Assembly: GCF_020295405.1 (NCBI RefSeq)
Contig: NZ_JADEYP010000002.1
Span: 1-64,000, forward strand
Direction of reading: 5' to 3'
From: Sphingobacterium bovistauri
GTDB lineage: Bacteria; Bacteroidota; Bacteroidia; Sphingobacteriales; Sphingobacteriaceae
DNA length: 64,000 nucleotides
In this document: positions 25,485-58,799 of the stretch, piece by piece
Layout of the letters: each line of letters begins with the position of its first letter
Position numbering within the stretch: position 1 is the first letter of the stretch
Notes under the pieces: generated by a model
What the model was told of the DNA's origin: nothing
Database searches by the model: none
Seen by the model: only the letters and a program-made list of their open reading frames with translations
Translations under genes and position numbers: made by a program

Positions 25485-25513
25485 TATAGATCGTATAATA
25501 AATGTAAGATGTG

Positions 25514-39999: not shown

Positions 40000-42900
40000 A
40001 TGAATCAATTAAACGGACAATATATGTGGATAGTAAATAATGTATGTAGAGTTGTGACTTCGATATTAGTCATATGCTCAAGTATATCGTTAAAAGCTCA
40101 AAATGGTGATCAAATATTAGATGGTATTGGTGAGACGGGAATGGTTTCACGATATATCTTTAATGGAGATTTAAAAGATTGGTCTAGAAATAATTTACAT
40201 GGCAGTTACCAACAAGGTCTGCCAAAATTTGTGTCAGATACTAAGTTTAATAAAGTATTATCTTTTGACAATAAACATTCAGAATATCTATCAATACCCA
40301 AGGATGCATTATTAAATATAGAGTCTTTGAGTATTTCAACTTGGTTGTATTCAAAATCAAATACTACAACTCAAACTTATTTTGAATTTGCGAAAAATAA
40401 TAAATCTATACTAAAAGCTTCGCAGGATAAACAAAAGATTTTTATAGCTTTTGCAGGCACCACTATTCATGCGACTTCTCTTCCACTTAATAAATGGGCA
40501 CATTTGGTCGTGGTCTTGGATGCTCCTTCTAAGACAATAAGTTTGTATGTAGATAATAAACTTCTCGCTGAGGAAAAGAATATTCCCATTGATTTTTCGA
40601 AATTATTCGGTACACAATCTGTTGGTAGCAGTGAAATAGTAATTGGTAATTCTATACTAAAAAATCAAGAAAGTCTAAATGCACTGTTGCATGATTTCAG
40701 AATTTACCGTGTGCCTTTAACAAAAGGCCAAATTACTGGAGTATATAATACTATAGTAAAGGGAGTACGTCAGGATCAGGAGCGAATGGGGAAAGTGCAA
40801 GACAACCTTCCGGAGTTTCCTATTAGTCAAGCACAATTGTACAATACATATTTGAAGAGCGTTGCAGATTGCGAGGTAGAGACTCAACTAGGAGAGTTGC
40901 CAAGATTACCGAGCTATTTACAAGGGGAATATATGGACAACATGATTGGGCCTAAAGTTAGAGTGATTTGGCCTGCACCAATTGATAATGCTGAAGTATT
41001 GCAAGCAGGAAAATATACTATTACAGGTAAAATACCCGGTTCCAATATTCTTCCTAAAGCTGTTGTGACAGTAAAGGCAAATAGTAAATCTAACCCCCCT
41101 ACTATTAAATTAGCATCATTTTCGTTGGATCAAATTTCATTGACATGGGATTCAAATAATAAGCAGACAAAGTTTATAGAAAATAGAGATAAGTTTTTGG
41201 GTACACTAGTTAATACAGACCCTAATTCTTTCTTGTATATGTTTCGGAATGCTTTTGGTCAACAACAACCTGAAGGAGCTAAACCACTAGGGGTTTGGGA
41301 TAGTCAAGATACCAAATTACGTGGTCATGCTACAGGTCATTATTTGACTGCATTGGCACAAGCTTATGCAGGCACTTATAATGATAGTAAGATGCATGAT
41401 AAGTTTGCTCAAAAGATGCTATACATGGTTGATGTTTTATATGAATTGTCGCAACTTTCAGGAAAACCAAATAATAATAGTGAATTTGAAGCAAACCCAT
41501 TATCTGTTTCTGCGGCCAAGGGAAAAGATGGATTTGATTCAGACCTAAGTATAGAAGGTATTCGTACAGATTATTGGAACTGGGGAAAAGGCTTTATTAG
41601 TGCATATCCTCCAGATCAATTTATAATGTTGGAAAAAGGTGCTAAATATGGAGGTCAGAAAAATCAGGTATGGGCTCCATATTATACTCTCCATAAAATA
41701 TTGGCAGGACTTTTAGATATTTATTCTGTAAGTGGTAATAAAAAGGCTCTTGATTTAGCTGTAGGAATGACAGATTGGGTGCATGTACGTTTGAATGCCT
41801 TACCAAAAGAAACACTAATTAGTATGTGGAATACATATATAGCAGGTGAATTTGGAGGAATGAATGAAACATTAGCGCAACTTTCTGCAATAACAAAAGA
41901 TACTAAATATTTAAAAACAGCTCAACTTTTTGATAACATAGATTTGTTTTTTGGCAATGCAGAACATACGCATGGATTGGCAAAGAATGTTGACTCTTTT
42001 CGTGGATTACACTCTAATCAACATATTCCACAAATTGTCGGCAGTATTGAAATGTATCGTGTGTCCAATTTAGACGATTATTATAAAATCGCTGACAACT
42101 TTTGGTATAAAGCAGTAAATGATTATATGTATAGTATTGGAGGTGTTGCTGGAGCAAGAAATCCAGCCAATGCAGAGTGTTTTGCAAAAGAACCATCAAC
42201 AATATATGAAAATGGATTTTCTGCTGGAGGACAAAATGAAACGTGTGCAACTTATAATATGTTGAAATTGACATCAAATCTTTTTATGTTCGAGCAAAAG
42301 GCTGAATATATGGATTATTTTGAACGCGCTTTGTATAACCATATTTTAGCTTCAGTAGATGAGCATACTCCTGCTAATACTTATCATGTTCCATTAAGAC
42401 CTGGTTCAGTAAAGCAATTTGGAAATCCAAATATGACTGGATTCACTTGTTGTAATGGTACTGCAATTGAGAGCAACACCAAATTGCAGAATGCAATTTA
42501 TCACCGCAGTATAGACAATAAATCTTTGTATGTTAATCTTTATGTTCCATCAATATTGAATTGGAAGGAACGTAATGTTATAATCGAGCAAACAACTAAT
42601 TTTCCTAAGGAGGATCACACACGTTTAACGATAAAAGGTAAAGGCAATTTTAAAGTTAACGTACGTGTACCACACTGGGCAAAAAAGGGATTTAAGATAA
42701 AGATAAATGGTAAGCAGGAAACTGTAAATGCTCAACCGGGCACATATTTGTCATTACAAAGAAATTGGAAAAATGGAGATATCATAGATTTGCAAATGCC
42801 ATTTGACTTTCATTTAGATCCTGTGATGGATCAGCAAAATATTGCCAGTCTATTTTATGGACCAATATTGTTAGCTGCTCAAGAACCTGAGGCTAGAGTA

Positions 42901-43056
42901 GATTGGAGAAAGGTAGCTTTAGATGCCAAAGACTTAAGTAAATCTATACAAGGAGATCCGAAAACTTTAGAATTCCAAATCGATGGCGTACTTTTCAAGC
43001 CTTTTTATGATACTTATGGTAGGCATTCAGTCTATTTAGATGTTACTTTGAAATAA
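40000..43056 (+). CDS. LamG plus GH127-like beta-L-arabinofuranosidase
   Basis: A 1018-residue secreted protein. ATG at 40000 or 40024 is possible; the latter begins the hydrophobic signal (WIVNNVCRVVTSILVI). Residues about 45-250 form a LamG/concanavalin-like domain (SISTWLYSKS, KWAHLVVVLDAPSK, LHDFRIYRVPLT). A linker with a bacterial Ig-like stretch follows, then a GH127-type barrel from about residue 370 (LRGHATGHYLTALAQAYAG). The active-site set is kept: Glu747 and Cys749 in NETCATYNM and Cys817-Cys818 in FTCCNGTAIE. It is a separate transcription unit between the arabinose operon and the hydroxyproline genes, a logical place for an enzyme acting on hydroxyproline arabinosides. That substrate is inference. 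Confidence 0.85.
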   Translation: MNQLNGQYMWIVNNVCRVVTSILVICSSISLKAQNGDQILDGIGETGMVSRYIFNGDLKDWSRNNLHGSYQQGLPKFVSDTKFNKVLSFDNKHSEYLSIPKDALLNIESLSISTWLYSKSNTTTQTYFEFAKNNKSILKASQDKQKIFIAFAGTTIHATSLPLNKWAHLVVVLDAPSKTISLYVDNKLLAEEKNIPIDFSKLFGTQSVGSSEIVIGNSILKNQESLNALLHDFRIYRVPLTKGQITGVYNTIVKGVRQDQERMGKVQDNLPEFPISQAQLYNTYLKSVADCEVETQLGELPRLPSYLQGEYMDNMIGPKVRVIWPAPIDNAEVLQAGKYTITGKIPGSNILPKAVVTVKANSKSNPPTIKLASFSLDQISLTWDSNNKQTKFIENRDKFLGTLVNTDPNSFLYMFRNAFGQQQPEGAKPLGVWDSQDTKLRGHATGHYLTALAQAYAGTYNDSKMHDKFAQKMLYMVDVLYELSQLSGKPNNNSEFEANPLSVSAAKGKDGFDSDLSIEGIRTDYWNWGKGFISAYPPDQFIMLEKGAKYGGQKNQVWAPYYTLHKILAGLLDIYSVSGNKKALDLAVGMTDWVHVRLNALPKETLISMWNTYIAGEFGGMNETLAQLSAITKDTKYLKTAQLFDNIDLFFGNAEHTHGLAKNVDSFRGLHSNQHIPQIVGSIEMYRVSNLDDYYKIADNFWYKAVNDYMYSIGGVAGARNPANAECFAKEPSTIYENGFSAGGQNETCATYNMLKLTSNLFMFEQKAEYMDYFERALYNHILASVDEHTPANTYHVPLRPGSVKQFGNPNMTGFTCCNGTAIESNTKLQNAIYHRSIDNKSLYVNLYVPSILNWKERNVIIEQTTNFPKEDHTRLTIKGKGNFKVNVRVPHWAKKGFKIKINGKQETVNAQPGTYLSLQRNWKNGDIIDLQMPFDFHLDPVMDQQNIASLFYGPILLAAQEPEARVDWRKVALDAKDLSKSIQGDPKTLEFQIDGVLFKPFYDTYGRHSVYLDVTLK

Positions 43057-43260: not shown

Positions 43261-44658
43261 TTATAATATCTGTGATGATCTCAATTCTTCAATTTCATCA
43301 ATCGATTTTATTAGTTCTGGTCCTAAAGTTCGATAACCATCAGCGGTAATAACGTAATTGTCTTCAATACGTATGCCTCCAAAATTTTTGTAATCAAGTA
43401 GTTTGTCGTAATTAATAAACTCAGACAACTTTCTTTCTGCTGCCCACAGATCAATTAAAGTGGGAATGAAATATATTCCTGGCTCCACTGTAAGAACATT
43501 ACCTACTTCAAGTTTTTTTGCTAACCGCAAAGATTTCCACCCAAATGTTTGGGTGTCTTTTGGCTCAATTGATGTATAACCAACATATTGCTCACCCAAA
43601 TCTTCCATGTCGTGTACATCCAAGCCCATCATATGTCCAGTACCACATTGAAAGAATAAGGTAAATGCATCAGCTTGTACTGCATCTTCTATATTAGCTT
43701 TGACTATACCGATGTCTTTTAAACCTTCCATTAAGGTCGTTACTGCACGTAAGTGTACATCACGAAATTTTATTTGTGGAGACAGTACTCCGCTAGCAGT
43801 ATTAATAGCTTGATGTACGATGTTGTAAATGTCGCGCTGAATGGGTGTGAATTTTTCAGAAACAGGAAAAGTTCGTGTTAAATCAGCAGCATAACCTAGT
43901 TCTGTTTCACATCCAGAATCGTTCAGAATCATATCACCTAGCGATATCCTATGATGACTATGTAAATTGTGTAATATTTCACCATGCTTGGTGACTATAG
44001 GAGGATAAGCAAATTTACAACCTTGGTTTTCTGCAAAATGACGCATCTGATTGATAATCTCATATTCCCTAATTCCAGGCTTGGTAATGGTCATAGCCAT
44101 TTTATGAATCTCTACAGTGGTAGTCAATGCTTTTTCAATCTCTTGAACTTCCTGATGCTCCTTTACAGAACGTTGTTGTACAACGGCTTGTATAAAAGAA
44201 GCTGAAGGTTGTAATGCATAGATGTGTTGTTGAGTTAAATCTGCTATTAAAATATGATTATATGCTTGGTAAGGTGGCAAATAATGAATAGTTCGATTTT
44301 GTTGGATTACTTTTTGGAAGTAAGGTTTTAATTCCTTGTATGGCAGTGTTTTGTAAACTCCTGATTTATTAGCTTTTTCTTTTAATGTTTCTATTTTTCC
44401 GGTCCATATAATATCATCTATACTTGCCTCATCACCAAATATTATAGTTTCATTACTATCTAAATCAATTACCGCAGAAATTCCAGCTGCATTTATCCCA
44501 AAGTAATATAAAAATGTACTATCCTGTCTAAATGGATAGGTATTATGTTCAAAATTTATAGGATTCTCTTTATTTGTTAAAAATAAGAGAATCCCATTAC
44601 TGTTGATATTGTGTGATAATTGTTGTCTGCGATTGGTATATGTATCAGTAGAAAACAT
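43261..44658 (-). CDS. M24 Xaa-Pro aminopeptidase/prolidase
   Basis: A cytoplasmic 465-residue dinuclear metallopeptidase (no signal peptide) that hydrolyses bonds before proline or hydroxyproline. The N-terminal creatinase-like domain (1-170) precedes the pita-bread catalytic domain. Metal ligands are visible as Asp in LNDSGCE, Asp in GYAADLTRTFP, His in GTGHMMGLDVHD, Glu in TVEPGIYF and Glu in RIEDNYVIT. It resembles PepP/PepQ. It is 3 bp downstream of the DUF5695-like gene and adjacent to the hydroxyproline operon, which suggests it cleaves imported Xaa-Hyp or Xaa-Pro peptides. Confidence 0.9.
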   Translation of the reverse strand: MFSTDTYTNRRQQLSHNINSNGILLFLTNKENPINFEHNTYPFRQDSTFLYYFGINAAGISAVIDLDSNETIIFGDEASIDDIIWTGKIETLKEKANKSGVYKTLPYKELKPYFQKVIQQNRTIHYLPPYQAYNHILIADLTQQHIYALQPSASFIQAVVQQRSVKEHQEVQEIEKALTTTVEIHKMAMTITKPGIREYEIINQMRHFAENQGCKFAYPPIVTKHGEILHNLHSHHRISLGDMILNDSGCETELGYAADLTRTFPVSEKFTPIQRDIYNIVHQAINTASGVLSPQIKFRDVHLRAVTTLMEGLKDIGIVKANIEDAVQADAFTLFFQCGTGHMMGLDVHDMEDLGEQYVGYTSIEPKDTQTFGWKSLRLAKKLEVGNVLTVEPGIYFIPTLIDLWAAERKLSEFINYDKLLDYKNFGGIRIEDNYVITADGYRTLGPELIKSIDEIEELRSSQIL

Positions 44659-44661
44659 TGT

Positions 44662-47382
44662 TTATATCTTTTTTAAAATTAATGAAGTTGTACCTTTTGG
44701 TAGTGTATATTTACCATTTGAGTTTTTCTCAAAACCATGAAGTTTATATCCACTTTCTTCATTCAAAGATAAAATAATGTGTTCTATTTCTATATTGTTA
44801 ACCTTACTGTTGAAAGTCAGGATGACATCTTTAGTTTTTAAGTCATAGCGTAAATTGTTTATTTCACCTATGTCCGTTGTTAGCCATAAATTCTCTTCTG
44901 CTAAAAAGATCCTCGCTTTAGACGCAGTAGTTATTTCTACATCTATATTATTTGAGTTCTGTGAAAGATTTCCAGAAAATGCGATCCACTTAAATTCAGG
45001 ATGTTTAACAATATAAGTTCCAGAGTTTACAGCATAGCCATAAAATCCACTACCGTAATCACCCGATATACCGTCATTAGCTAAAGTAGATGGATAGGAG
45101 TGAAACGCTGCAGGACCAAAGCCATCTTCCGTAACATTGGCTAAAGCTCCCATCATACCAGCATGTCCTACACGCAGTAAGTAGAAATCACTAGGATTGT
45201 TACGATATTCATTGAGAACTGGAATGGAATTTAATGCAGATCCATAATGGTGTAATTGTCGTTCGATACGAGATAATTTTCCCCCATATACAAAATCCCA
45301 ATAGCGACGTGCGCTACCATTGTAGCCCCAATGTGGTAACGTAGGCATATATGCTAAGATTGCATTTAATGTAACTGAAGCTTTATCATCAAAACCAAAA
45401 TACTTAGACCACATATATACTTCTTCTTGACCCGTAGAATCCCATGGCATCTCACTGCCAAAAGGATAATTTAAAGTACGCCAATGTTCAGCACGTTTAC
45501 GCATTTTAGCTTCTAATAGATTTGCTTCAGTCAATAATCCTTCCCGTTTTAAATCTTCTAAAATAAATAAAAACACGCTTCCTTCCATTTGACCAAACTG
45601 CGCATAATAGGGAGCTTTCTCTACCATTGCCATTGTTGTGTGGTATGCGCGTTTTAGGTACGTAGACCAATCTTCTTCAGGAACAAGATTAGTGTAATTT
45701 TTACTCAACTTATAAAGCACCCAATGCGCAGCAGCAACATGTGGATAATTATATGAACGACCGATATTATTTGCTTCCTTTTTAGGCCAAGCAGACCATG
45801 TCTTGTAATTTATATCTTTACTATATGTACCAACTGGCATTGAATCTGGCTCATAATAGAAGAGACTTTTAACAACTCCATACTTATTTTTTCCTTCTTT
45901 ATGTTGAATTCGACCATATAAGGTTTCATTAGCAAATCTTTTGAGTTTATTCACCTCATTAACATCCGGAAGTAATAGTTGTTTCATGATAGCCGCTAGC
46001 CAACTAGCTGCTCCTGCTTCATCACTAAGACCAGCATACCAAGCTCGTTTTTCTTGAGTAATATGTGTTTTGGTTTCATAATCGTAAGATATAACAGATG
46101 GTGATCTTCCAAATAAATCACTTGGGTTTTCATACCACTGCTTTGTTGTTAAAAAGTTCCCTAAATCATTTACAACATCTTTTTCGGCTTTTATTATTTT
46201 ATAGTGAACTGTTTGTAAGCTTCCGTCCTGGTAGTTTATTTCTAAACGAGCCTTTCCCCATTTATTTCCTATTATTTGATAAGTTACCCATTTATTAGGT
46301 GTATCCTTTTCTTTAGTAATTGATAAAGCTTGGTTAGGATAAACTTGAATGGATTTTATTTTTTTTGAGGATTTAATAAATAACTTAGCCGTATTATCAA
46401 GTGGTAATACATATCCTGGAGCTCCCACAACCACAGGTTTTTGTTGGCGAATTAGTTCATTTTCAATTTCTTTTATGCTTGGAGCTAGTACAAGACGTAC
46501 AGCAAAAGATTTTTTTTCTCCTGGTTTTAAAAATGATGAAGTAGGCGTATTCCATTGTTCTACACCCTTCCAATCAGTTTCTGCTAGAGCTTTACTATGA
46601 ATTAGCCATTCGTGAAATCCTTCGAAAGTAATACTTCTTGGAGTTGGATCTGAATTTAAAGGGTTATAGGCTTCAAATCCTGCATTTTCATAAGGCAATA
46701 CCAATAGGCTTGGGCCATTACCATGTAACCTGTTGACTTGTAAATAACCCGCATCTTTTCCAATATATGGATCAAAAAATACATTATCCATATGTGCGGT
46801 GTCTAAATTTTTCCAGTCTAGATTATTGTTAAAAATCATAGGAATTCCTAATCCACCTATTTCATACTTTTGATTTGATGTATTAATTATTTCAAATTTT
46901 AATACTAAATCTCCATTTATATTTTGCCAATATCGATTTACTTGAACAGGAATTTCTCCTAAGGAAGCTGAAATATCTGAAGCAGCTAGCGTTTGTTTAT
47001 TCTCAGTATGTATGGGTTTAACATCAATTCTTTTGGTAGATGATGAAAAACTTTTCCAAACAGTAGTTCCTTCTGCTTTTATAGTAATGTTGATGTCACC
47101 AAAATGATAAAATTTATTCCTATCCCTTTTGTTTAGGAGTTCGTCAGGAGTATAATCAAAATTGTTCTCTGATTTCAATTTCAAACTTGATGCAGTCTGT
47201 GAAGAATTCAATATTGAAATATTAAAGTTTTTTAGATTAAAATCTTGTGATCCTTTATTAATTCCTAAAGTAGCTGGTTGTTTCTTAATTTCTTCCCAAA
47301 AAGGATTTTGACTAAAACTTTTGCTGGGTAGTCCCAATGCAAATAAGCAAATAACAAGACATGAAATGGATATACTTTTCAT
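44662..47382 (-). CDS. DUF5695-like secreted protein, possible glycoside hydrolase
   Basis: A 906-residue secreted protein (signal MKSISISCLVICLFALGLP). The N-terminal half looks like a beta-sandwich domain (GSQDFNLKNFNISILNSSQT near residue 43, FYHFGDINITIKAEGT near 92), a feature I associate with DUF5695. From about 440 a helical-repeat region rich in Trp, Tyr and acidic residues follows (AWYAGLSDEAGAASWLAAI, FGQMEGSVFLFILEDL, GQEEVYMWSKYFGF), and a C-terminal beta region. That layout resembles (alpha/alpha)6-barrel glycosidases and lyases, but I cannot name a reaction or catalytic residues. Co-transcribed with the M24 peptidase and divergent from the AraC regulator. Confidence 0.6.
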   Translation of the reverse strand: MKSISISCLVICLFALGLPSKSFSQNPFWEEIKKQPATLGINKGSQDFNLKNFNISILNSSQTASSLKLKSENNFDYTPDELLNKRDRNKFYHFGDINITIKAEGTTVWKSFSSSTKRIDVKPIHTENKQTLAASDISASLGEIPVQVNRYWQNINGDLVLKFEIINTSNQKYEIGGLGIPMIFNNNLDWKNLDTAHMDNVFFDPYIGKDAGYLQVNRLHGNGPSLLVLPYENAGFEAYNPLNSDPTPRSITFEGFHEWLIHSKALAETDWKGVEQWNTPTSSFLKPGEKKSFAVRLVLAPSIKEIENELIRQQKPVVVGAPGYVLPLDNTAKLFIKSSKKIKSIQVYPNQALSITKEKDTPNKWVTYQIIGNKWGKARLEINYQDGSLQTVHYKIIKAEKDVVNDLGNFLTTKQWYENPSDLFGRSPSVISYDYETKTHITQEKRAWYAGLSDEAGAASWLAAIMKQLLLPDVNEVNKLKRFANETLYGRIQHKEGKNKYGVVKSLFYYEPDSMPVGTYSKDINYKTWSAWPKKEANNIGRSYNYPHVAAAHWVLYKLSKNYTNLVPEEDWSTYLKRAYHTTMAMVEKAPYYAQFGQMEGSVFLFILEDLKREGLLTEANLLEAKMRKRAEHWRTLNYPFGSEMPWDSTGQEEVYMWSKYFGFDDKASVTLNAILAYMPTLPHWGYNGSARRYWDFVYGGKLSRIERQLHHYGSALNSIPVLNEYRNNPSDFYLLRVGHAGMMGALANVTEDGFGPAAFHSYPSTLANDGISGDYGSGFYGYAVNSGTYIVKHPEFKWIAFSGNLSQNSNNIDVEITTASKARIFLAEENLWLTTDIGEINNLRYDLKTKDVILTFNSKVNNIEIEHIILSLNEESGYKLHGFEKNSNGKYTLPKGTTSLILKKI

Positions 47383-47442
47383 AAATTTTAGTTTAGAAAT
47401 GACTTAATTATATAATTGAATTTGTAGAACTCAAGATGAGTG

Positions 47443-47476
47443 CAAATTTATGGTTACGTTATACACGAGACACAAA
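47443..47476 (-). promoter_or_regulatory. Promoter of the DUF5695-M24 operon
   Basis: On the minus strand TTTG (47476-47473) is followed after 22 bp by TAAATTTG (47450-47443), a perfect TAnnTTTG -7 box. The spacing is one base longer than the usual 19-21. The start codon lies about 60 bp downstream. Confidence 0.6.
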
Positions 47477-47570
47477 GATGTCAGAATAATCGATTTTTTA
47501 GTTACTGAATATTATCCCATTCTACTTTATTTTTATCCTGTTGCATTTTTTTATTGTTTTTATCTATCAA

Positions 47571-47611
47571 GTTTAGTTAAATTTAGAGTAAAGTCTAACC
47601 AAATTCTAAAC
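47571..47611. promoter_or_regulatory. Inverted repeat ahead of the AraC-family gene
   Basis: GTTTAG (47571-47576) and CTAAAC (47606-47611) form the ends of a partial inverted repeat that stops 1 bp before the start codon. TTTAG is repeated inside it. It might be a binding site for autoregulation; evidence is weak. Confidence 0.3.
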
Positions 47612-47612
47612 T

Positions 47613-48476
47613 ATGAAAGCGCTACATTATAACTTGAACATTCCTAATGATCGAACCATAGTTGTTCAAGACGAAGTCCTAGATTCATTTTATCCACATT
47701 TTCATAAGCATCCAGAATATCAGCTGGTTTGGATTGCTGAAGGTGATGGTAAACTTATTGTTGATAATAATTTACATGACTTTGAGCGAGGTGAGGTTTT
47801 TTTAATAGGAGCTAATCAACCGCATGTTTTTAAAGGTGATAAGCTACCATTGCATGTACGGACAGTTTCGGTGTTTTTTAATCTTAAAGGTACTTTAGAA
47901 TACATATTTGGTCTTCCTGAATTAAAAACTTTGAAAACTTTTTTAACAAATTTTAGTAATGGTTTTCGTGTTCCTAAGGAGTATATAAAAGATGTATCTT
48001 CTCGAATAGTAATATTAAAAAATTCAGATGGTGCTGATAGACTAATTAATTTTATATATCTGCTCAAATTACTGAATGTGATTTCAAAAGATGTATCACC
48101 TTTGTCTGGTGCAATAATCAAGGAGATTAATGATGTAGCATCCATTCGTATCATCGGATTGTGTAATTATATTAAACAACATTTTCGTGAAGATTTGCAT
48201 TTAAATACTATAGCAGAAAAGGCAAATCTTACTCCACAAGCTTTTTGTAGGTATTTTAAAAAATGTACAGGTAAAACCTTTGTCTGTTATCTCAATGAAT
48301 TACGTGTTAGCGAGGCTTGTCGATTGTTAATAAATGAGCGTTATGATTGTATTTCAATGATTGCATATAATAGTGGATTTAACAGTATTACTAATTTTAA
48401 TAGGGTGTTTAGGGCAAGTACGGGGTTATCACCAAAAGAGTTTGTACATCGTTATGAAACATCTATAAATCAATAA
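47613..48476 (+). CDS. AraC-family transcriptional regulator
   Basis: A 287-residue regulator. Residues 1-100 form a cupin-type sensing domain (HFHKHPEYQLVWIAEGDGKL, FERGEVFLIGANQPH), and residues about 185-284 form the double helix-turn-helix (LNTIAEKANLTPQAFCRYFKK, then ISMIAYNSGFNSITNFNRVF with the STGLSPKEF ending). It lies between the divergent DUF5695-M24 pair and the hydroxyproline operon, so it probably controls both, with hydroxyproline or a derivative as likely effector. That is inferred from position. AraC-family activators next to hydroxyproline genes are known in proteobacteria. Confidence 0.88.
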   Translation: MKALHYNLNIPNDRTIVVQDEVLDSFYPHFHKHPEYQLVWIAEGDGKLIVDNNLHDFERGEVFLIGANQPHVFKGDKLPLHVRTVSVFFNLKGTLEYIFGLPELKTLKTFLTNFSNGFRVPKEYIKDVSSRIVILKNSDGADRLINFIYLLKLLNVISKDVSPLSGAIIKEINDVASIRIIGLCNYIKQHFREDLHLNTIAEKANLTPQAFCRYFKKCTGKTFVCYLNELRVSEACRLLINERYDCISMIAYNSGFNSITNFNRVFRASTGLSPKEFVHRYETSINQ

Positions 48477-48585: not shown

Positions 48586-49509
48586 ATGGCAAACTTAAAT
48601 TGGGAAGGTATTTATCCTGCAGTTTTAACCCCATTCGATAAACATGATGATATTGACTTCTCCATGTTTGAAAAAAATACTGAAGCTCAAATTGATGCGG
48701 GGGTACATGGTATTATTTTAGCTGGATCTTTAGGAGAAGCAAGTGCATTGACTTCGAATGAGAAATTTTTATTGCTAGAAAAAGCGATTGAAATTGTTAG
48801 GGGGAGAGTCCCTATTATCCTTAATCTTACAGAAAATACAACGAAAGATGCTGTCGAATTTGCGCAACGTGCGGAGAAAATTGGTGCCAATGGCCTGATG
48901 GTTTTACCTCCAATGCGTTATAAAGCTGATGATCGAGAAGTAGTCGCTTATTTCAAAGCAATTGCACAAAGTACTTCCTTGCCTATTTTGGTATATAACA
49001 ATCCTGTAGACTATGCGACTTATATTTCATTAGATATGTTGGAAGAATTATTACAAGAGCCAACAATTCAAGCCGTGAAGGAGTCTACGCGTGATTTGGC
49101 AAACGTGACTAGATTGAAGAACAGATTTGGAGATCGGTTAAAGGTTTTAGGGGGGGTAGATACAATCTGTTTAGAATCATTAATGGTAGGAGCAGATGGA
49201 TTGGTGGCTGGGCTTGTTGACGCATTTCCAAATGAAACAATGGCATTGTATAATTTGGTTAAGGCAGGAGAATATAGCAAAGCTGTAGAATTATACCGTT
49301 GGTTTATGCCATTGCTAGAATTGGATATTCATCCAAAATTAATTCAATATATAAAATTAGCAGCTACTTACGAAGGAATTTGCACGCCTTATACACGTGC
49401 TCCTCGATTACCTTTAATTGGTGAAGAGAAAGTAAGAATTGAAAAAATTATTGGAGATGCTATTGCAGTCAGACCTCATTTAACGGCATTAAATTATGCT
49501 ACAAACTAA
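48586..49509 (+). CDS. 1-pyrroline-4-hydroxy-2-carboxylate deaminase (DapA superfamily)
   Basis: It deaminates and dehydrates 1-pyrroline-4-hydroxy-2-carboxylate to 2-oxoglutarate semialdehyde in hydroxyproline breakdown. A 307-residue TIM barrel of the dihydrodipicolinate synthase/N-acetylneuraminate lyase superfamily. The Schiff-base Lys165 is in AVKESTRD, the Tyr137 in LVYNNPVDY, and the substrate loop is GSLGEASALT near residue 47. The superfamily alone would allow other lyases, but the next genes encode the dehydrogenase, epimerase and oxidase of the same pathway. It overlaps the next gene by 14 bp. Confidence 0.88.
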   Translation: MANLNWEGIYPAVLTPFDKHDDIDFSMFEKNTEAQIDAGVHGIILAGSLGEASALTSNEKFLLLEKAIEIVRGRVPIILNLTENTTKDAVEFAQRAEKIGANGLMVLPPMRYKADDREVVAYFKAIAQSTSLPILVYNNPVDYATYISLDMLEELLQEPTIQAVKESTRDLANVTRLKNRFGDRLKVLGGVDTICLESLMVGADGLVAGLVDAFPNETMALYNLVKAGEYSKAVELYRWFMPLLELDIHPKLIQYIKLAATYEGICTPYTRAPRLPLIGEEKVRIEKIIGDAIAVRPHLTALNYATN

Positions 49510-50947
49510 TAAAATGGAACTGGATATTTTAATCGCTAATGCTGAGGATGGATATAAACATCTTCAGCAAATGTCTAGAAAAGATCGAGCTGAATTAATG
49601 TATTCAATAGCCTCAAGTATTGAAGCATTGGGTGATGAACTGATACAAACGGCTCATGAGGAAACGAATTTGCCATTGGCCAGGTTAAATGGGGAAAAGG
49701 CACGTACAATTCATCAATGGAGACTTTATGCTGATGTTACGGCATCTGGTGTTTTGTTAGATGCTCGAATTGATTATGGAGAAGGGAAAAATGATATTAG
49801 AAAATATAATGTTGGATTGGGACCAGTTGTTGTATTTGGAGCATCAAACTTTCCGTTTGCATTCTCTACTGCCGGTGGAGATACGGCAAGTGCTATAGGT
49901 GCTGGATGTTCAGTTATTTACAAAGAACATTCTGCACATCCACGTACATCACGTATTATGGCGAAAGCAATATATGATGGATTAAAAGCATTCGGTGCGC
50001 CAAATGAAATTTTTGGATATGCATCAGGTAATTCACATGATGTCGGTCAATCTTTAGTCGCTAATCCAAAAATCAAAGCTGTAGCATTTACTGGATCTTT
50101 TCAAGGAGGGATGGCTTTATTTAAAATTGGTGCAAATAGACCTGAACCTATTCCAGTATTTGCAGAAATGGGAAGTTTGAATCCTGTTATTGCTATGCCT
50201 GAATTTTTGCAATCCAATACGACAAATTTCGCTAAAGAATATATAGCATCACTAACTATGGGTTGTGGACAATTTTGTACAAACCCCGGAATATTGTTCT
50301 TATTAAAGAATGAAGTTTCAGAGAACTTAAAACAATTGATAAAGCAAGAGTTTGGGTCAGTAGAAGTGGGGCACATGTTACATGAAGGAATACGTAAATC
50401 TTATGATAAATCACTTGATCTATTAAATTCAACGGTCGTAGCGAATGTTGTAGGATCGACTGCTGAGAGTAGAGATTTACCTATCGCAGTAGTTTATTCT
50501 GTTAATGCAACTGATTTTCTGAAGTTTAAACATTTGCAAGAAGAGGTTTTTGGGCCCTGTGGTGTTATAGTAGAATGTGATTCAATATCCCAAATGGAAG
50601 ATATAATTTCAAATTTGGCAGGTCAATTAACAATTACTTTTGCGGCAACAAAACAGGATATTCAACAAAATTTAACTTTAGTTGATTTAGTAAAAAATAA
50701 ATGTGGCAGGTTACTATTTAATGGAATGCCCACAGGAGTAGAAGTTGTTTATGCTATGCAGCATGGAGGGGTATTCCCTTCTAGTACAGATAGTCGATTC
50801 ACCTCTGTTGGTCCAGATGCAATGAAACGGTTTCTAAGACCTATAAGTTTTCAAAATTGGCCTGACACATTATTACCATTAGAACTTCAAAATTCAAATC
50901 CTTCAAGAATCGAAAGAATCGAAAATAACAAGCGCATTTTACCTTAA
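49496..50947 (+). CDS. 2-oxoglutarate (alpha-ketoglutaric) semialdehyde dehydrogenase
   Basis: It oxidises 2-oxoglutarate semialdehyde to 2-oxoglutarate, delivering hydroxyproline carbon to the TCA cycle. An aldehyde dehydrogenase of 483 residues with VVVFGASNFPFAFSTAGGD for cofactor binding near residue 112, Glu224 in FAEMGSLNPV and catalytic Cys261 in GCGQFCTNPG. The GQFCTNPG motif and the length fit semialdehyde dehydrogenases from hydroxyproline and glucarate pathways. ATG at 49496 overlaps the deaminase gene; an ATG at 49514 is the alternative start. It is 3 bp before the epimerase gene. Confidence 0.9.
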   Translation: MLQTNKMELDILIANAEDGYKHLQQMSRKDRAELMYSIASSIEALGDELIQTAHEETNLPLARLNGEKARTIHQWRLYADVTASGVLLDARIDYGEGKNDIRKYNVGLGPVVVFGASNFPFAFSTAGGDTASAIGAGCSVIYKEHSAHPRTSRIMAKAIYDGLKAFGAPNEIFGYASGNSHDVGQSLVANPKIKAVAFTGSFQGGMALFKIGANRPEPIPVFAEMGSLNPVIAMPEFLQSNTTNFAKEYIASLTMGCGQFCTNPGILFLLKNEVSENLKQLIKQEFGSVEVGHMLHEGIRKSYDKSLDLLNSTVVANVVGSTAESRDLPIAVVYSVNATDFLKFKHLQEEVFGPCGVIVECDSISQMEDIISNLAGQLTITFAATKQDIQQNLTLVDLVKNKCGRLLFNGMPTGVEVVYAMQHGGVFPSSTDSRFTSVGPDAMKRFLRPISFQNWPDTLLPLELQNSNPSRIERIENNKRILP

Positions 50948-50950
50948 ATT

Positions 50951-51949
50951 ATGAGAAAAACTTTTTTTTGTATCGATTCACATACCTGTGGTTGCCCTGT
51001 TCGTTTAGTTGCAGGAGGAGGACCATTCTTAAATGGGAATAGTATGATGGAGCGAAGGCTCCATTTTATGCAAGAATATGACTGGATACGTTTGGGTTTG
51101 ATGTTTGAACCACGAGGTCACGACATGATGAGTGGGAGTATCTTATACCCACCAATTGATGCAAAAAATGATGTAGGAGTGTTATATATCGAAACAAGTG
51201 GCTGTCTTCCAATGTGTGGTCATGGTACAATCGGTACAGTAACTATAGCTATTGAGGAAGGTTTGATAAAACCAAAGGTTCCAGGAAAATTACGTTTAGA
51301 AACACCTGCTGGACTTGTTTTGGTAGATTATAAACAGGAAGGTGAAAAAGTTACGTCTGTAAAGCTCACTAATGTAAAATCTTTTCTTTATAAAGAAGCA
51401 TTACAAGTAAAATGTCCTGATTTGGGAGATATTTATGTGGATGTCGCTTATGGTGGTAATTTTTATGGAATCATTGATCCACAGCAAAATTTCGCTGATA
51501 TTTCGAATTTTACAGCTGCTCAACTGATTCATTACGGAAAAATCATTCGAGGGATGTTAAATGAAAAATATGAATTTATCCATCCAGAAGATATTAATAT
51601 AAAAGGATTAACCCATATTCAGTGGACGGGTAAACCCATGAAAAGTAATTCTTCAGGTCGTAATGCAGTACTTGTAGGTGAGAATGCTTTAGATAGATCT
51701 CCTTGTGGGACAGGTACTTCGGCGCGAATGGCGCAATGGTTTGCTAAAGGTAAATTGAAGCAAGGTGATGCATTTATTCATGAAAGTTATATAGGCTCCC
51801 AATTTACGGGGAAAGTTGAAGCTGTTACTGACATAAATGGACAACCAGCTATCATTCCATCAATTGAAGGCTGGGCACGAATTACAGGATATAATACCAT
51901 TTTTATTGACGATCAGGATCCTTACAAAGACGGTTTTCAAGTTATTTAG
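50951..51949 (+). CDS. lhpA: 4-hydroxyproline 2-epimerase
   Basis: A cofactor-free proline-racemase-family enzyme that turns trans-4-hydroxy-L-proline into cis-4-hydroxy-D-proline. The 332-residue protein has both catalytic cysteines: Cys89 in LPMCGHGTIGT and Cys252 in DRSPCGTGTSAR. A Cys/Cys pair indicates epimerase or racemase; a threonine in the second position would suggest a dehydratase. IDSHTCGCPVRLV at the N-terminus is typical. This gene, with the flanking oxidase and dehydrogenase genes, fixes the pathway as hydroxyproline catabolism. Confidence 0.93.
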   Translation: MRKTFFCIDSHTCGCPVRLVAGGGPFLNGNSMMERRLHFMQEYDWIRLGLMFEPRGHDMMSGSILYPPIDAKNDVGVLYIETSGCLPMCGHGTIGTVTIAIEEGLIKPKVPGKLRLETPAGLVLVDYKQEGEKVTSVKLTNVKSFLYKEALQVKCPDLGDIYVDVAYGGNFYGIIDPQQNFADISNFTAAQLIHYGKIIRGMLNEKYEFIHPEDINIKGLTHIQWTGKPMKSNSSGRNAVLVGENALDRSPCGTGTSARMAQWFAKGKLKQGDAFIHESYIGSQFTGKVEAVTDINGQPAIIPSIEGWARITGYNTIFIDDQDPYKDGFQVI

Positions 51950-51973: not shown

Positions 51974-53227
51974 ATGAAAAAAGGTACAGTAGTCATTATT
52001 GGGGCCGGAATAGCAGGTTTATCCACCGCATATTATTTAGTAAATCAAGGGTGGAATGTGCAGATCATTGAACAAAATACATTAGATAACAATTGTTCGT
52101 ACGGAAATGCAGGAATGATTGTACCTAGTCATTTTACACCAATGGCTTCCCCGGGAATGATTTCTCAAGGAATTCGTTGGATGTTTGACAAGAAAAGTCC
52201 GTTCTATGTTCGACCATCTCTGAATTTTAATTTGATGGATTGGGGATTTAAGTTTATGAGATATGCAAATAAAAACCATGTATCAGCTCATGTGGAGCCA
52301 TTAAGGGATCTAAATGTATATAGTAGTCAACTTTATGATAGCTTATCCCAAGATTCAGCATTTAATTTTGAGTTGGAACAAAATGGTATAATGATGCTTT
52401 ACAAAACCAAATCGGTAGAGTATGAAGAAAAAGAATTAGCTAAACGTGCTCAAGAATTAGGATTGGATGTAGAAATTAAAACTGCCGAAGAAATGCAGGC
52501 TCTCGAGTCAGGTGTAAAGATTGATATATTAGGGGGAATACTATATAAATGTGATGGCAAGCTCAATCCGATGAAACTCATGAAACAGCTTGTCAGCTAT
52601 TTAAAAAGTAGAGGTGTTATTTTTCACGAGCAAACAAAGGTTAAAGGATATAATATTTTAGGTAATAAAATAAAAGAAATAGTAACAGATAAGGGTAATT
52701 ATGCAGGCGATGAATTTGTCCTTTGTCCAGGGTCATATTTGATGGAGTTGACCAATAAGCTTCATTTGAAATTACCTTTAATGCCAGGTAAAGGATATTC
52801 ATTTATGTATACACCCCCAACACATGTGAAATTGGAGCATGCAGCACTTTTATTAGAAGCAAAAGTAGCTGTTACACCTATGGATGGCAAAATACGATTT
52901 GGAGGAACTATGGAATTGGGTTCTCCCAACAATAAAATATATAAAAACCGTGTTGAAGGGATTGTAAACTCAATACCTAAATACTTGAAAAATTTGAGTG
53001 TTGACTATCCAAAACAAGATATCTGGTATGGATATAGACCTTGTCCACCAGATGGTTTACCTTATTTAGGAAGAACAAGCAAATACGATAATGTCACAAT
53101 TGCTGCTGGAGGAGGTATGATGGGATTAAGTTTAGGTCCGGCAATGGGTAAATCTATAAGTGATATTTTGTCAAATAGAAAAATTGAAACAAATATTTCG
53201 GTTTTTAGTCCCGATAGGTTTGGCTAA
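51974..53227 (+). CDS. FAD-dependent D-hydroxyproline oxidase/dehydrogenase (DadA family)
   Basis: It oxidises cis-4-hydroxy-D-proline to 1-pyrroline-4-hydroxy-2-carboxylate. A 417-residue DAO-superfamily flavoprotein with the FAD dinucleotide motif VVIIGAGIAGLSTAYYLV at residues 6-23, CSYGNAGMIVPSHFTPMA near residue 40 (typical of DadA) and the C-terminal second FAD contact IAAGGGMMGLSLGPAMG near 375. It is a single polypeptide, unlike the multi-subunit LhpBEF enzyme of pseudomonads. The electron acceptor is unknown. It lies 24 bp after the epimerase gene. Confidence 0.87.
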   Translation: MKKGTVVIIGAGIAGLSTAYYLVNQGWNVQIIEQNTLDNNCSYGNAGMIVPSHFTPMASPGMISQGIRWMFDKKSPFYVRPSLNFNLMDWGFKFMRYANKNHVSAHVEPLRDLNVYSSQLYDSLSQDSAFNFELEQNGIMMLYKTKSVEYEEKELAKRAQELGLDVEIKTAEEMQALESGVKIDILGGILYKCDGKLNPMKLMKQLVSYLKSRGVIFHEQTKVKGYNILGNKIKEIVTDKGNYAGDEFVLCPGSYLMELTNKLHLKLPLMPGKGYSFMYTPPTHVKLEHAALLLEAKVAVTPMDGKIRFGGTMELGSPNNKIYKNRVEGIVNSIPKYLKNLSVDYPKQDIWYGYRPCPPDGLPYLGRTSKYDNVTIAAGGGMMGLSLGPAMGKSISDILSNRKIETNISVFSPDRFG

Positions 53228-53253: not shown

Positions 53254-55005
53254 ATGAAAACTACCAAAATAACCACTTTTATTCTTATCCTATTTTTTAC
53301 TAATAATGTTGTAATGGCACAAGACTTATATCAACATACTACACCAATTGAGCCTTTTGTAATACAATATGGTCACGATCAACAGGCGATCAATTATTTT
53401 TATGGCCCAATGCCAAAGGGCTGGGGGCAGCAGTCTGCAATGGAGACTCCAGAGCAGATTGAACGCTTAATAACATTGGATAAGGAATACATTCAAAAGC
53501 TCAAAGACTTTCCATACAAAAAATTAAATACCAATGGTCAAGTTGATTTTATTTTACTTAATCGTAAAGTGAAATTTAATATGGAATCATTGATTGAGCA
53601 ATTAAAAACATATGAACGTATAAAATTATTTATTCCATTTGATCAAATAATTTATGATTTCGAAAAATTGCGAAGACGTGGAACAACAATAAAAGGGGAA
53701 GAAGTTGCGAATAATTTGCAAAAAGCTATTCAGTTAATAAAAAAGGAGACTGAGAAACTTCAACGTGTTAATTCCATCCCATATACCGATGTGAATTTTT
53801 TGAAAGAAGTTTTAGAATCGTTAAAGTTACGCCTTTCCAGTTCTTTTGATTTCTATAATGAATATGAACCTATGTTTAGTTGGTGGGTTCCTGCTCCATA
53901 TAAACAATTATCTGAGGATTTGACATCTTACAGCAAACTCATCTCGGAAAAAAGTGATTGGAAAGTTTTTAATGATGGTAGTAATATAGGAGGAACACCA
54001 ATTGGGAAAAATTCATTCAATAAGCAGTTGAAAGATGAAATGATTGCTTATAATACCGAGGAATTACTTCGAATTGCAGACCAAGAATTTGCATGGTGTG
54101 AAGCAGAATTGTTGAAAGCTTCACAAGAAATGGGGTTCGGAAAAGATTGGAAAGCAGCACAAGAGAAAGTGAAAAACACATATGTTCCTGAAGGAAGACA
54201 ACCTGAGCTTATACTTAAATTATATAACGACGCACAAACCTTTATTCAAAAACATGATTTGATGGATATTCCGCCATTAGCAGATGAAACCTGGGGAATG
54301 ATAATGATGAGCGCAGAACGTCAATTAGTCAATCCATTTTTCACTGGCGGTCGTGAAATCAGTATATCCTACCCTACAAATACTATGACACAGGAACAAA
54401 AGTTAATGAGTATGCGTGGTAATAATCCTTACTTTTCAAGAGGTACCGTTCAACATGAGCTAATTCCAGGTCATCACTTACAGTATTTCATGAATAGAAG
54501 ACATAAACCTTATCGGGAAAAAGCTTTTAATACCCCATTTTGGACTGAAGGATGGACATTGTATTGGGAACTGATGATGTATGGAAAAGGTTTTGCAAAA
54601 ACTCCTGAAGAACGTATAGGGATGCTTTTTTGGCGAATGCACCGTTGTGCTCGTATAACTTTCAGCATAAAATTTCACTTGGGTGAATGGACACCACAAC
54701 AATGTATAGATTATTTGGTAGATAGAGTAGGATTTGAACCAGCAAATGCACATGGTGAAGTTAAAAGGTCTTTTGAAGGTTCATATAGCCCATTATATCA
54801 ACTGGCTTATCTAGTTGGTGGATTGCAGTTGATGGATATTAAGAAAGAAATGGTGGATTCCGGTAAAATGAATTATAAGCAATTTCATGATCGAGTAATC
54901 AAAGAAAATTATATGCCAATGGAAATGTTAAGGGCAATATTGACAGACCAAAAATTAGATGCAGACCACCAGACCTCTTGGAAATTTTACCAATTCAAAA
55001 ATTAA
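53254..55005 (+). CDS. DUF885-family zinc metallopeptidase
   Basis: A secreted or periplasmic 583-residue protein (signal to about residue 22, ending VVMAQ). It belongs to the DUF885 group of predicted zinc peptidases. The HExxGHH-like motif is visible as HELIPGHH at residues 401-408, and the downstream acidic motif TEGWTLYWE near residue 432 supplies a probable third ligand. The order (metal motif, then EGW) is shared with M32-like or M3-like gluzincins. It is co-transcribed with the hydroxyproline enzymes, so a role in trimming hydroxyproline-containing peptides is likely; specificity is unknown. Confidence 0.8.
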   Translation: MKTTKITTFILILFFTNNVVMAQDLYQHTTPIEPFVIQYGHDQQAINYFYGPMPKGWGQQSAMETPEQIERLITLDKEYIQKLKDFPYKKLNTNGQVDFILLNRKVKFNMESLIEQLKTYERIKLFIPFDQIIYDFEKLRRRGTTIKGEEVANNLQKAIQLIKKETEKLQRVNSIPYTDVNFLKEVLESLKLRLSSSFDFYNEYEPMFSWWVPAPYKQLSEDLTSYSKLISEKSDWKVFNDGSNIGGTPIGKNSFNKQLKDEMIAYNTEELLRIADQEFAWCEAELLKASQEMGFGKDWKAAQEKVKNTYVPEGRQPELILKLYNDAQTFIQKHDLMDIPPLADETWGMIMMSAERQLVNPFFTGGREISISYPTNTMTQEQKLMSMRGNNPYFSRGTVQHELIPGHHLQYFMNRRHKPYREKAFNTPFWTEGWTLYWELMMYGKGFAKTPEERIGMLFWRMHRCARITFSIKFHLGEWTPQQCIDYLVDRVGFEPANAHGEVKRSFEGSYSPLYQLAYLVGGLQLMDIKKEMVDSGKMNYKQFHDRVIKENYMPMEMLRAILTDQKLDADHQTSWKFYQFKN

Positions 55006-55010
55006 ATACG

Positions 55011-56423
55011 ATGACCACCGAAAAACCTAATTTTAAAAAATCATTAAGTTTATTAGATGCCACAATGCTTGTTGTAGGAAGTATGATAGGCTCAGGTATT
55101 TTTATCGTAACAGCAGATATAGTTCGTAATACAGGATCTGTGGGGTGGATGATGATTGTATGGGTACTTAGTGGGATCATGACTTTAATTGCTGCAATTA
55201 CTTATGGTGAACTAAGTGCAATGTTTCCGAAAGCAGGTGGTCAGTATGTTTATTTAAGAGAAGCTTATAATCCTTTAGTCAGTTTCGTTTTTGGATGGAC
55301 ATTTTTTGCAGTTATTCAAACGGCAACCATAGCTGCAGTAGGGGTGGCCTTTGCTAAGTTTACAGCTTATTTATTTCCAATATTGGATGAGGATGTAATA
55401 TTGTTAACGATTGGAGGTCTTAAAATATCTTCAGCACAAATGTTATCAATAGCAGTTATTTTATTGTTGACATTTATTAATACTTGTGGTGTCAATGCAG
55501 GGAAGTGGGTGCAGACAAGTGTTACCCTTGTCAAACTATTGAGTTTGTCTTTGTTAGTATTATTTGGATTTCTAGCATTTAAGCACGAAATATGGAACCA
55601 GAATTGGTTTTCACAAAACACATGGACATTACGTAAGCTTAATGTCGATGGTTCATTTGAAAATTACACCTCTTTTGCGGCTTTTGGAGCTCTGTCAGCA
55701 GCAATGGTGGGTGCGTTATTCAGCAGTGATTCATGGCACTCTTCTTCTGCTGTTGCTGGTGAAATTAAAAACCCAAAGCGTAATATCGGATTAAGTTTAG
55801 CTTTAGGAACCATAATAGTAACCATTATATATTTACTTACCAATTTGATGTACAGTTCGGTGCTGGATTTAAATGCGATGGTCAATGCACCTAAAGATCG
55901 TGTTGCGATGAGTGTCGCACAAGAGATATTTGGTCCTGTAGGTATTACTATTCTTGCAGTTATGATTATGATAAGTACATTCGGATGCAACAACGGTCTT
56001 ATTATGGCAGGAGCACGTGTGTATTATTCAATGGCTGAAGATGGTTTGTTTTTTAAGAAAGCAAAAGGCCTAAATAAGTATTCTGTACCTAGCTATGCAT
56101 TGTGGATTCAAGGATTTGTTTCGGCGCTTTGGTGTTTGAGTGGTAAGTATGGTGATTTATTGGATATGATAACCTGTGTAGTTGTTGTGTTTTATGTCTT
56201 AGCGATTTATGGTGTTATTCGTTTAAGAAGGTTAAAACCTGATTTGGAACGGCCTTATAAAGCATTTGGCTATCCGGTACTTCCTGTTTTGTATATATTC
56301 ATGGGTATAGCTTTTATTGTTTCATTAGTCCTATTTAAACCGACATATTCTATATTGGGAGCTATTATTACCTTATTAGGCATTCCTATTTATTACATTA
56401 TAAAATCTAAAAAAAATGATTAG
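55011..56423 (+). CDS. APC-superfamily amino acid permease
   Basis: A 470-residue inner-membrane protein with about 12 hydrophobic helices. ATG at 55011 is used; an upstream TTG frame overlaps the DUF885 gene. The first helix contains the unwound GSMIGSGIF motif that contacts the substrate's amino and carboxyl groups in APC transporters. YGELSAMFPKAGGQYVYLREAY is typical of the LAT/YhdG-like group. In this operon the expected substrate is hydroxyproline, proline or a small peptide product. It overlaps the next gene by 8 bp. Confidence 0.88.
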   Translation: MTTEKPNFKKSLSLLDATMLVVGSMIGSGIFIVTADIVRNTGSVGWMMIVWVLSGIMTLIAAITYGELSAMFPKAGGQYVYLREAYNPLVSFVFGWTFFAVIQTATIAAVGVAFAKFTAYLFPILDEDVILLTIGGLKISSAQMLSIAVILLLTFINTCGVNAGKWVQTSVTLVKLLSLSLLVLFGFLAFKHEIWNQNWFSQNTWTLRKLNVDGSFENYTSFAAFGALSAAMVGALFSSDSWHSSSAVAGEIKNPKRNIGLSLALGTIIVTIIYLLTNLMYSSVLDLNAMVNAPKDRVAMSVAQEIFGPVGITILAVMIMISTFGCNNGLIMAGARVYYSMAEDGLFFKKAKGLNKYSVPSYALWIQGFVSALWCLSGKYGDLLDMITCVVVVFYVLAIYGVIRLRRLKPDLERPYKAFGYPVLPVLYIFMGIAFIVSLVLFKPTYSILGAIITLLGIPIYYIIKSKKND

Positions 56424-58671: not shown

Positions 58672-58709
58672 AAGCATTCATTTATTGAATGCTTTTTTTG
58701 TTTTTTTTA
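58672..58709 (+). terminator. Strong intrinsic terminator of the hydroxyproline operon
   Basis: AAGCATTCA (58672-58680) pairs perfectly with TGAATGCTT (58686-58694) around a 5-nt loop, followed by a long T run interrupted by one G (58695-58708). It lies 19 bp past the S9 peptidase stop. Confidence 0.93.
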
Positions 58710-58726
58710 AAGGGGATAAAAAGAGG

Positions 58727-58750
58727 GTGCTATGAGCTAAAATCTGATAA
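58727..58750 (+). repeat. 24-bp element shared with the susC upstream region (copy 1)
   Basis: GTGCTATGAGCTAAAATCTG and the next four bases match 62255-62278 at 19 of 24 positions (18 of the first 21). It lies between the terminator and the start of the GH43-CBM32 gene, about 50 bp before the start codon. It may be a shared regulatory site. Confidence 0.4.
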
Positions 58751-58799
58751 TTGTGGTAATGTTTTTAAAAGTAATTTCAAATGCCATTTATCAACGATT

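Follow-up and report, generated by a model that had tools for sequence, protein, structure and literature searches.

The 906-amino acid protein encoded at positions 44662–47382 of the window (the whole stretch of DNA analyzed here, i.e., positions 1 to 64,000 of contig NZ_JADEYP010000002.1 of Sphingobacterium bovistauri) belongs to the family DUF5695 (PF18951) and is, judging from sequence and predicted structure, a distant homologue of the polysaccharide lyases of family PL27. The reading that we favor, with a probability of roughly 0.65, is that DUF5695 proteins are exported carbohydrate-active enzymes of the PL27 superfamily, which would trim the glycans of plant or algal hydroxyproline (Hyp)-rich glycoproteins of the arabinogalactan-protein (AGP) or extensin type; we infer catalysis, export and the Hyp-rich substrate from homology, conserved residues and gene context. 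The link of DUF5695 with PL27 or with Hyp catabolism is new, as no earlier report of it was found in the literature searched, where no function is given for DUF5695 or PF18951 and the family receives a single passing mention, in a table of fungal velvet proteins.

The reading frame runs uninterrupted from an ATG start on the minus strand, and the plus strand across the same positions contains many stops:

44662–47382, minus strand: DUF5695 (PF18951) protein, 906 aa (Pfam, 1266 bits; AF2 model; PL27 homology)

PF18951 covers residues 57–896 of the product (profile positions 2–849 of 857; 1266 bits, cut-off 25.2 bits), hence this is a full-length member and the family name given by the original prediction is correct. 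With the window protein as query, no NCBIfam model matches, and the sequence alone retrieves nothing above noise from the PDB. The N-terminus is hydrophobic and signal-peptide-like, as it is in 77 of 81 family members; the protein is probably exported, with the periplasm as its likely location. The AF2 model, computed from an alignment of 60 DUF5695 proteins (pLDDT 87.8, pTM 0.90), has a beta domain (residues 45–397), an (alpha/alpha)6 barrel of twelve long helices (400–786) and a C-terminal beta domain (789–905); confidence is low in the loop 687–709, which bears the conserved R693, W695 and D696. Both the N-terminus and the model agree with the secreted beta-sandwich plus helical-barrel layout that had been expected. 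Two other family members were noted: a protein of 1355 aa from a genome of another class (L138:3772-7836) carries an N-terminal extension of ~480 residues without a Pfam match, and a very distant second family protein (L040:13379-16093; 22% identical) lies close to the main copy in its genome. The latter retains R542, Y544, Y546, E644, D648, E653, W695, D696 and Y713 and lacks D454, E455, K702 and H712; its folding gave a poor model (pLDDT 51.5), which was set aside.

PL27 enzymes, which combine a beta-sandwich with an (alpha/alpha)6 barrel, use beta-elimination to release rhamnose from Rha-alpha1,4-GlcA caps in gum arabic (PMC8377490). A profile of the 60 DUF5695 proteins searched against the PDB with hmmsearch has a sole match, the PL27 enzyme BACCELL_00875 (5NO8; E 3.8e-11). 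In a Foldseek search of the PDB with the AF2 model, 5NOK/5NO8 rank first (E 1e-29, TM 0.84 on the target, rmsd 4.2), and the matches that follow (GH94) lie far behind and align poorly. Comparison of the two family profiles with hhalign gives a probability of 99.8 (E 7.5e-28, 653 columns), and in BLAST the window protein alone matches one PL27 homologue with 21% identity over 591 aa (E 4e-15). Because profile, profile-profile, BLAST and fold searches agree, distant homology of DUF5695 to PL27 is established. The original prediction had proposed a comparison with (alpha/alpha)6 glycosidases; the closest solved relative is a polysaccharide lyase instead. A phosphorylase or hydrolase fold of the GH94/GH65 type was rejected, since its E-value of 1e-8 goes with a TM below 0.3 and an rmsd of about 22. 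GH127 and GH146 enzymes are marked by a PF07944 catalytic domain with a Zn-bound Cys nucleophile, and this identity was rejected as well, as the window protein has no PF07944 match and its mature form has no Cys (C9 and C13 lie in the signal-like region).

The predicted model shows the beta-sandwich plus (alpha/alpha)6 fold of 5NO8 that is expected of PL27, but the window protein is 19–22% identical to 11 PL27 homologues, which is far below the 54–75% identity to 5NO8 (catalytic part) among the PL27 homologues collected, and hence we treat DUF5695 as a variant family related to PL27 rather than as a member of PL27. A query spanning the catalytic domain retrieved these homologues, first at the level of the class and then within a single family of it; a search with the N-terminal piece alone returned no matches. 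The gathering cut-off of PF18951 is passed by five PL27 proteins and most others fall just below it (38–47 vs 20–25 bits), so that the boundary of the Pfam family runs through PL27. Like BACCELL_00875 (5NO8/5NOK), DUF5695 proteins have a beta-sandwich followed by an (alpha/alpha)6 barrel with 18 identical polar residues; unlike PL27, they carry the extra C-terminal beta domain, are about 200 residues longer, and are encoded in loci that contain Hyp catabolism, GH146 and peptidase genes.

The 18 polar barrel residues common to both families are Q415, R426, Y433, D434, D454, E455, R542, Y544, N545, Y546, E644, Y656, N688, R693, W695, D696, H712, and Y713. Among the 54 polar barrel columns invariant in DUF5695, 20 are identical in PL27 and 34 differ, whereas slid alignments of the two families give 0–4 matches; an independent alignment that includes three Sphingomonas members repeats nearly all of the shared polar residues. 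The signature blocks read, for DUF5695 and PL27 respectively, SDEG and DEGA, GRSYNYPH and NRGYNY, YPFGSE and YPxHE, ARRYWD..YGGK and AIRHWD..FGK, and HHYGS and PHYWS. The residues changed in PL27 include H548, E600, D648, E653, R692, E707, R708, and H711. Of the 62 invariant polar residues of DUF5695, 25 fall just before or at the start of every second helix, a region that makes up 23% of the barrel, whereas the odd helices have nine in 20%; a single pocket that opens at one end of an (alpha/alpha)6 barrel would be expected to show such a pattern. We infer that these residues line a pocket that is partly remodeled relative to PL27. As 34 of the 54 invariant columns differ, specificity has probably changed, and even the chemistry may have. 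A structure without a plausible active site had been named as the outcome that would speak against the original prediction; since a conserved pocket is indicated, this is not what was found.

The genomic context of the gene in S. bovistauri comprises the following features:

40000–43056, plus strand: GH146-like beta-L-arabinofuranosidase (LamG, Big_4 and GH127/146 catalytic domain; Pfam PF07944)
43261–44658, minus strand: M24 peptidase, Xaa-Pro aminopeptidase/dipeptidase-like (Pfam AMP_N and Peptidase_M24)
47383–47612, no strand: divergent intergenic region of 230 bp between the DUF5695 and AraC regulator genes (ORF coordinates)
47613–48476, plus strand: AraC-family regulator with cupin sensor domain (Pfam HTH_18, AraC_binding)
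48586–49509, plus strand: DHDPS-family lyase, probable pyrroline-hydroxycarboxylate deaminase of Hyp catabolism (Pfam DHDPS; role from context)
49496–50947, plus strand: aldehyde dehydrogenase, probable 2-oxoglutarate semialdehyde dehydrogenase (Pfam Aldedh)
50951–51949, plus strand: 4-hydroxyproline epimerase (NCBIfam NF010578, 573 bits, cut-off 376)
51974–53227, plus strand: FAD D-amino-acid (D-hydroxyproline) dehydrogenase-like protein (Pfam DAO; NCBIfam D-amino acid dehydrogenase under its cut-off)
53254–55005, plus strand: DUF885 protein, metallopeptidase-like by its HELIPGHH motif (Pfam DUF885)
54978–56423, plus strand: amino-acid permease of the APC family (Pfam AA_permease_2)
56416–58653, plus strand: S9 prolyl oligopeptidase/DPP IV-like peptidase (Pfam DPPIV_N and Peptidase_S9)
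58689–62198, plus strand: GH43 protein with F5/8-type C and laminin-G domains (Pfam)

The M24 gene, whose product has aminopeptidase P and prolidase as its nearest solved relatives, lies downstream of the DUF5695 gene on the same strand, 3 bp from the DUF5695 stop to the M24 ORF start; the tight pairing with a peptidase that had been noted is therefore real, and both genes are probably on one transcript. The second half of that observation, the divergence from a hydroxyproline regulator, stands insofar as an AraC-type gene is divergent across the 230 bp (an arrangement that this gene also has in L002–L007); a response of this regulator to Hyp is suggested by context only. The aldehyde dehydrogenase has the alpha-ketoglutaric semialdehyde dehydrogenase model as its best NCBIfam match, under the cut-off of that model. 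On the far side of DUF5695 lie the GH146-like gene (best solved relative 5OPJ, E 6.5e-69) and genes for GH2, GH43, GH127, GH51 and GH97 proteins, together with an L-arabinose catabolic cluster that includes an AraR-type regulator; the GH97 of this cluster (window 25511–27457) is closest to PDB 5XFM and differs from the alpha-galactosidase-like GH97 that accompanies PL27 genes. A promoter scan was at chance level and a terminator scan little above chance.

Nearly all of the 80 DUF5695 loci surveyed are from Bacteroidota, and a GH146-like homologue is close to DUF5695 in 56 of them. An S9 peptidase occurs in 42 of the 80, GH43 with F5/8 and LamG domains in 34, DUF885 in 32, the FAD dehydrogenase in 26, the Hyp epimerase in 22, the amino-acid permease in 19, DUF6055 in 17, and the AraR-type regulator and DHDPS in 15 each. 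The M24 peptidase follows DUF5695 in eight of the 80 loci, all in Sphingobacterium and Pedobacter, and was therefore rejected as the key partner; the Xaa-Pro pairing is a feature of Sphingobacteriaceae only, and the general partners are GH146/GH127, S9 and DUF885. In Allomuricauda and Flagellimonas the order is DHDPS, ALDH, HypEpi, DAO, S9, GH146, (DUF885), DUF5695 and GH43, on a single strand with gaps below 250 bp, although no one locus has the full set, and in many Flavobacteriaceae a DUF885 homologue is directly upstream of DUF5695. DUF5695 is thus placed in an operon-like run with Hyp-degrading genes, which bears out the predicted link to Hyp-rich material. Across Sphingobacterium, Flavobacterium, Allomuricauda and Sphingomonas plasmids, it is found with GH146/GH127, S9, DUF885 and Hyp catabolism genes, which frequently share an operon with it.

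The Hyp epimerase is present in 10 of 14 sampled genomes with DUF5695 and in nine of 32 without it, the latter not being matched to the former. In eight of the 10 genomes that have both, the two genes are at most 18 kb apart, for which the naive chance probability is ~1e-15, the genomes not being phylogenetically independent. The epimerase is absent from four DUF5695 genomes of another class, in one of which DUF5695 is directly followed by DUF885 and S9. Four Sphingomonas/Novosphingobium plasmids (L139–L142), of which three come from plant or rhizosphere sources, carry DUF5695 genes that are 44–45% identical and lie beside GH127-family and DUF885 genes, with an S9 relative in most and an Ldh-family oxidoreductase in the annotated ones; this oxidoreductase could act in hydroxyproline metabolism as a pyrroline-carboxylate reductase. 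As the same gene set recurs in another phylum, chance or phylogenetic inertia is an unlikely cause. In three related genomes the neighbors of PL27 include GH43, GH97 and DUF6055 proteins, relatives of which are near DUF5695 in 36, 13 and 26 loci, respectively, so that both families appear in degradation loci of the arabinogalactan type. The GH43 at 58689–62198 has homologues of 59–66% identity near PL27 genes in Bacteroidaceae-like genomes, and DUF6055, another family without known function, adjoins both PL27 and DUF5695 genes (L127:15116-16432; L060:16939-18255).

In the proposed role, the (alpha/alpha)6 pocket of DUF5695 would accept a non-reducing glycan end and take off the terminal unit, which would expose arabinosides to GH43 and GH146/GH127. 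The bared proline-rich peptide would then be cleaved by the S9, DUF885 and, in S. bovistauri, M24 peptidases, and the freed Hyp would enter the epimerase/dehydrogenase pathway. The gene context agrees with the role in glycopeptide breakdown put forward by the original prediction; the bond and the chemistry remain proposals. Because of the ancestry shared with PL27, we lean slightly toward beta-elimination at a uronic-acid-bearing end, which falls just short of an even chance, whereas hydrolysis, with Hyp-arabinosides as the target that the gene context would favor, is only slightly less likely and a non-catalytic role is unlikely.

A specific form of hydrolysis, possible but rather unlikely, is that DUF5695 is a glycoside hydrolase which uses a PL27-like scaffold to cleave Hyp-linked arabino-oligosaccharides from extensin. 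The corresponding step, Ara3-Hyp to Ara-Hyp, is performed in Bifidobacterium and Xanthomonas by the GH121 beta-L-arabinobiosidase; in Xanthomonas, GH121 forms a set with GH146 and GH43 next to a prolyl oligopeptidase gene, and Bacteroides reportedly lacks GH121/HypAA homologues (PMC6085000, PMC10850190). The DUF5695 loci resemble the systems of Bifidobacterium longum and Xanthomonas euvesicatoria in combining GH146/GH127 with GH43 and, as far as Xanthomonas is concerned, in having a prolyl peptidase gene close by. They differ in that DUF5695 stands in the place of GH121, also an (alpha/alpha)6 enzyme and marked by three conserved acids in HypBA2, and that Hyp catabolic genes are part of the operon-like run or locus. 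Rather than uronate enzymes, GH146/GH127, peptidases and Hyp catabolism accompany DUF5695 most constantly; E600 and E653 are extra invariant acids without a PL27 counterpart, D648 is a Glu in PL27, and the GH36 and alpha-galactosidase-like GH97 of some loci could remove the Ser-alpha-Gal of extensin. However, the nearest relative in fold and sequence is a lyase, the shared Arg, Lys, His, Tyr and Asn are of the lyase kind, no GH121 structure is among the 50 fold matches listed for the model, and GH127/146 exo-enzymes alone can shorten Ara3-Hyp (HypBA1; PMC6085000). That DUF5695 founds a new family, in which the PL27 scaffold switched from uronate lyase to Hyp-arabinoside hydrolase as the Bacteroidota/Sphingomonas counterpart of GH121, is a bolder version and a little less likely still.

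It is more doubtful that DUF5695 is a true L-rhamnose-alpha-1,4-D-glucuronate lyase that carries out the PL27 reaction on AGP caps. Homology and the residues common to both families speak for it, as does a RhaI-like rhamnose isomerase homologue (under the NCBIfam cut-off) in 13 of 14 DUF5695 genomes, in S. bovistauri on the DUF5695 contig about 27 kb away; the isomerase RhaA (PF06134), one isomerase type only, is above its cut-off in none of 46 genomes. As RhaI homologues are common, rhamnose use does not discriminate. Against this reading stand the 19–22% identity with many invariants changed, and the lack of uronate-processing genes in the 80 loci. Any uronate lyase, including one that acts by the elimination preferred above, should require GH88/GH105, homologues of which are found within 10 kb of DUF5695 in none of the 80 loci; a strong match is missing from the whole genome in three of 14 DUF5695 genomes, and GH88/GH105 counts among genomes give no clean discrimination. 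Moreover, a protein of BNR_4 (PF15892), the Pfam family of FoRham1/PL42, could perform the Rha-GlcA reaction. In a region past the window end (G000 contig C22:69833-75851, L133:5833-11851), its gene immediately precedes genes of rhamnose catabolism (aldolase/dehydrogenase, RhaI-like isomerase and kinase) and follows a SusC/SusD pair beginning at window 62515. Taken together with the Hyp and arabinose genes, this gives the region an AGP-directed look; BNR_4 relatives are near DUF5695 in none of the other 80 loci. The PL42/GH145 (BNR_4) enzymes acting on Rha-GlcA may share the AGP substrate class with DUF5695, but are seven-bladed propellers of unrelated fold.

An arabinan or RG-I side-chain enzyme, with the Hyp link reflecting a mixed plant-cell-wall locus, is improbable: the window does have the L-arabinose cluster with GH51, GH43, GH2 and GH97, and one Sphingomonas locus runs on into rhamnogalacturonan genes, but Hyp, S9 and DUF885 genes recur near DUF5695 in lineages far apart, also where the locus has no pectin genes. 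A non-catalytic glycan- or glycoprotein-binding protein, compatible with the fact that no activity of any DUF5695 member was found in the literature searched, is the least probable of all, given the strictly conserved, pocket-like residue set common to a proven enzyme family.

Under the favored reading of a glycan-trimming enzyme, a domain of unknown function is given a predicted fold and a structural relative and is placed in a defined pathway, so that a small number of available glycans suffices to test for its substrate. The recurrent operon outlined here, consisting of Hyp catabolism, GH146/GH127, S9/DUF885 peptidases and DUF5695, often with GH43, probably allows Bacteroidota and Sphingomonas to consume extensins or AGPs including the peptide part, the use of which is poorly described so far. 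If true, a hydrolase on the PL27 scaffold would be a core step of a conserved system for the utilization of Hyp-rich glycoproteins, and a switch between lyase and hydrolase chemistry on one scaffold would parallel GH145/PL42.
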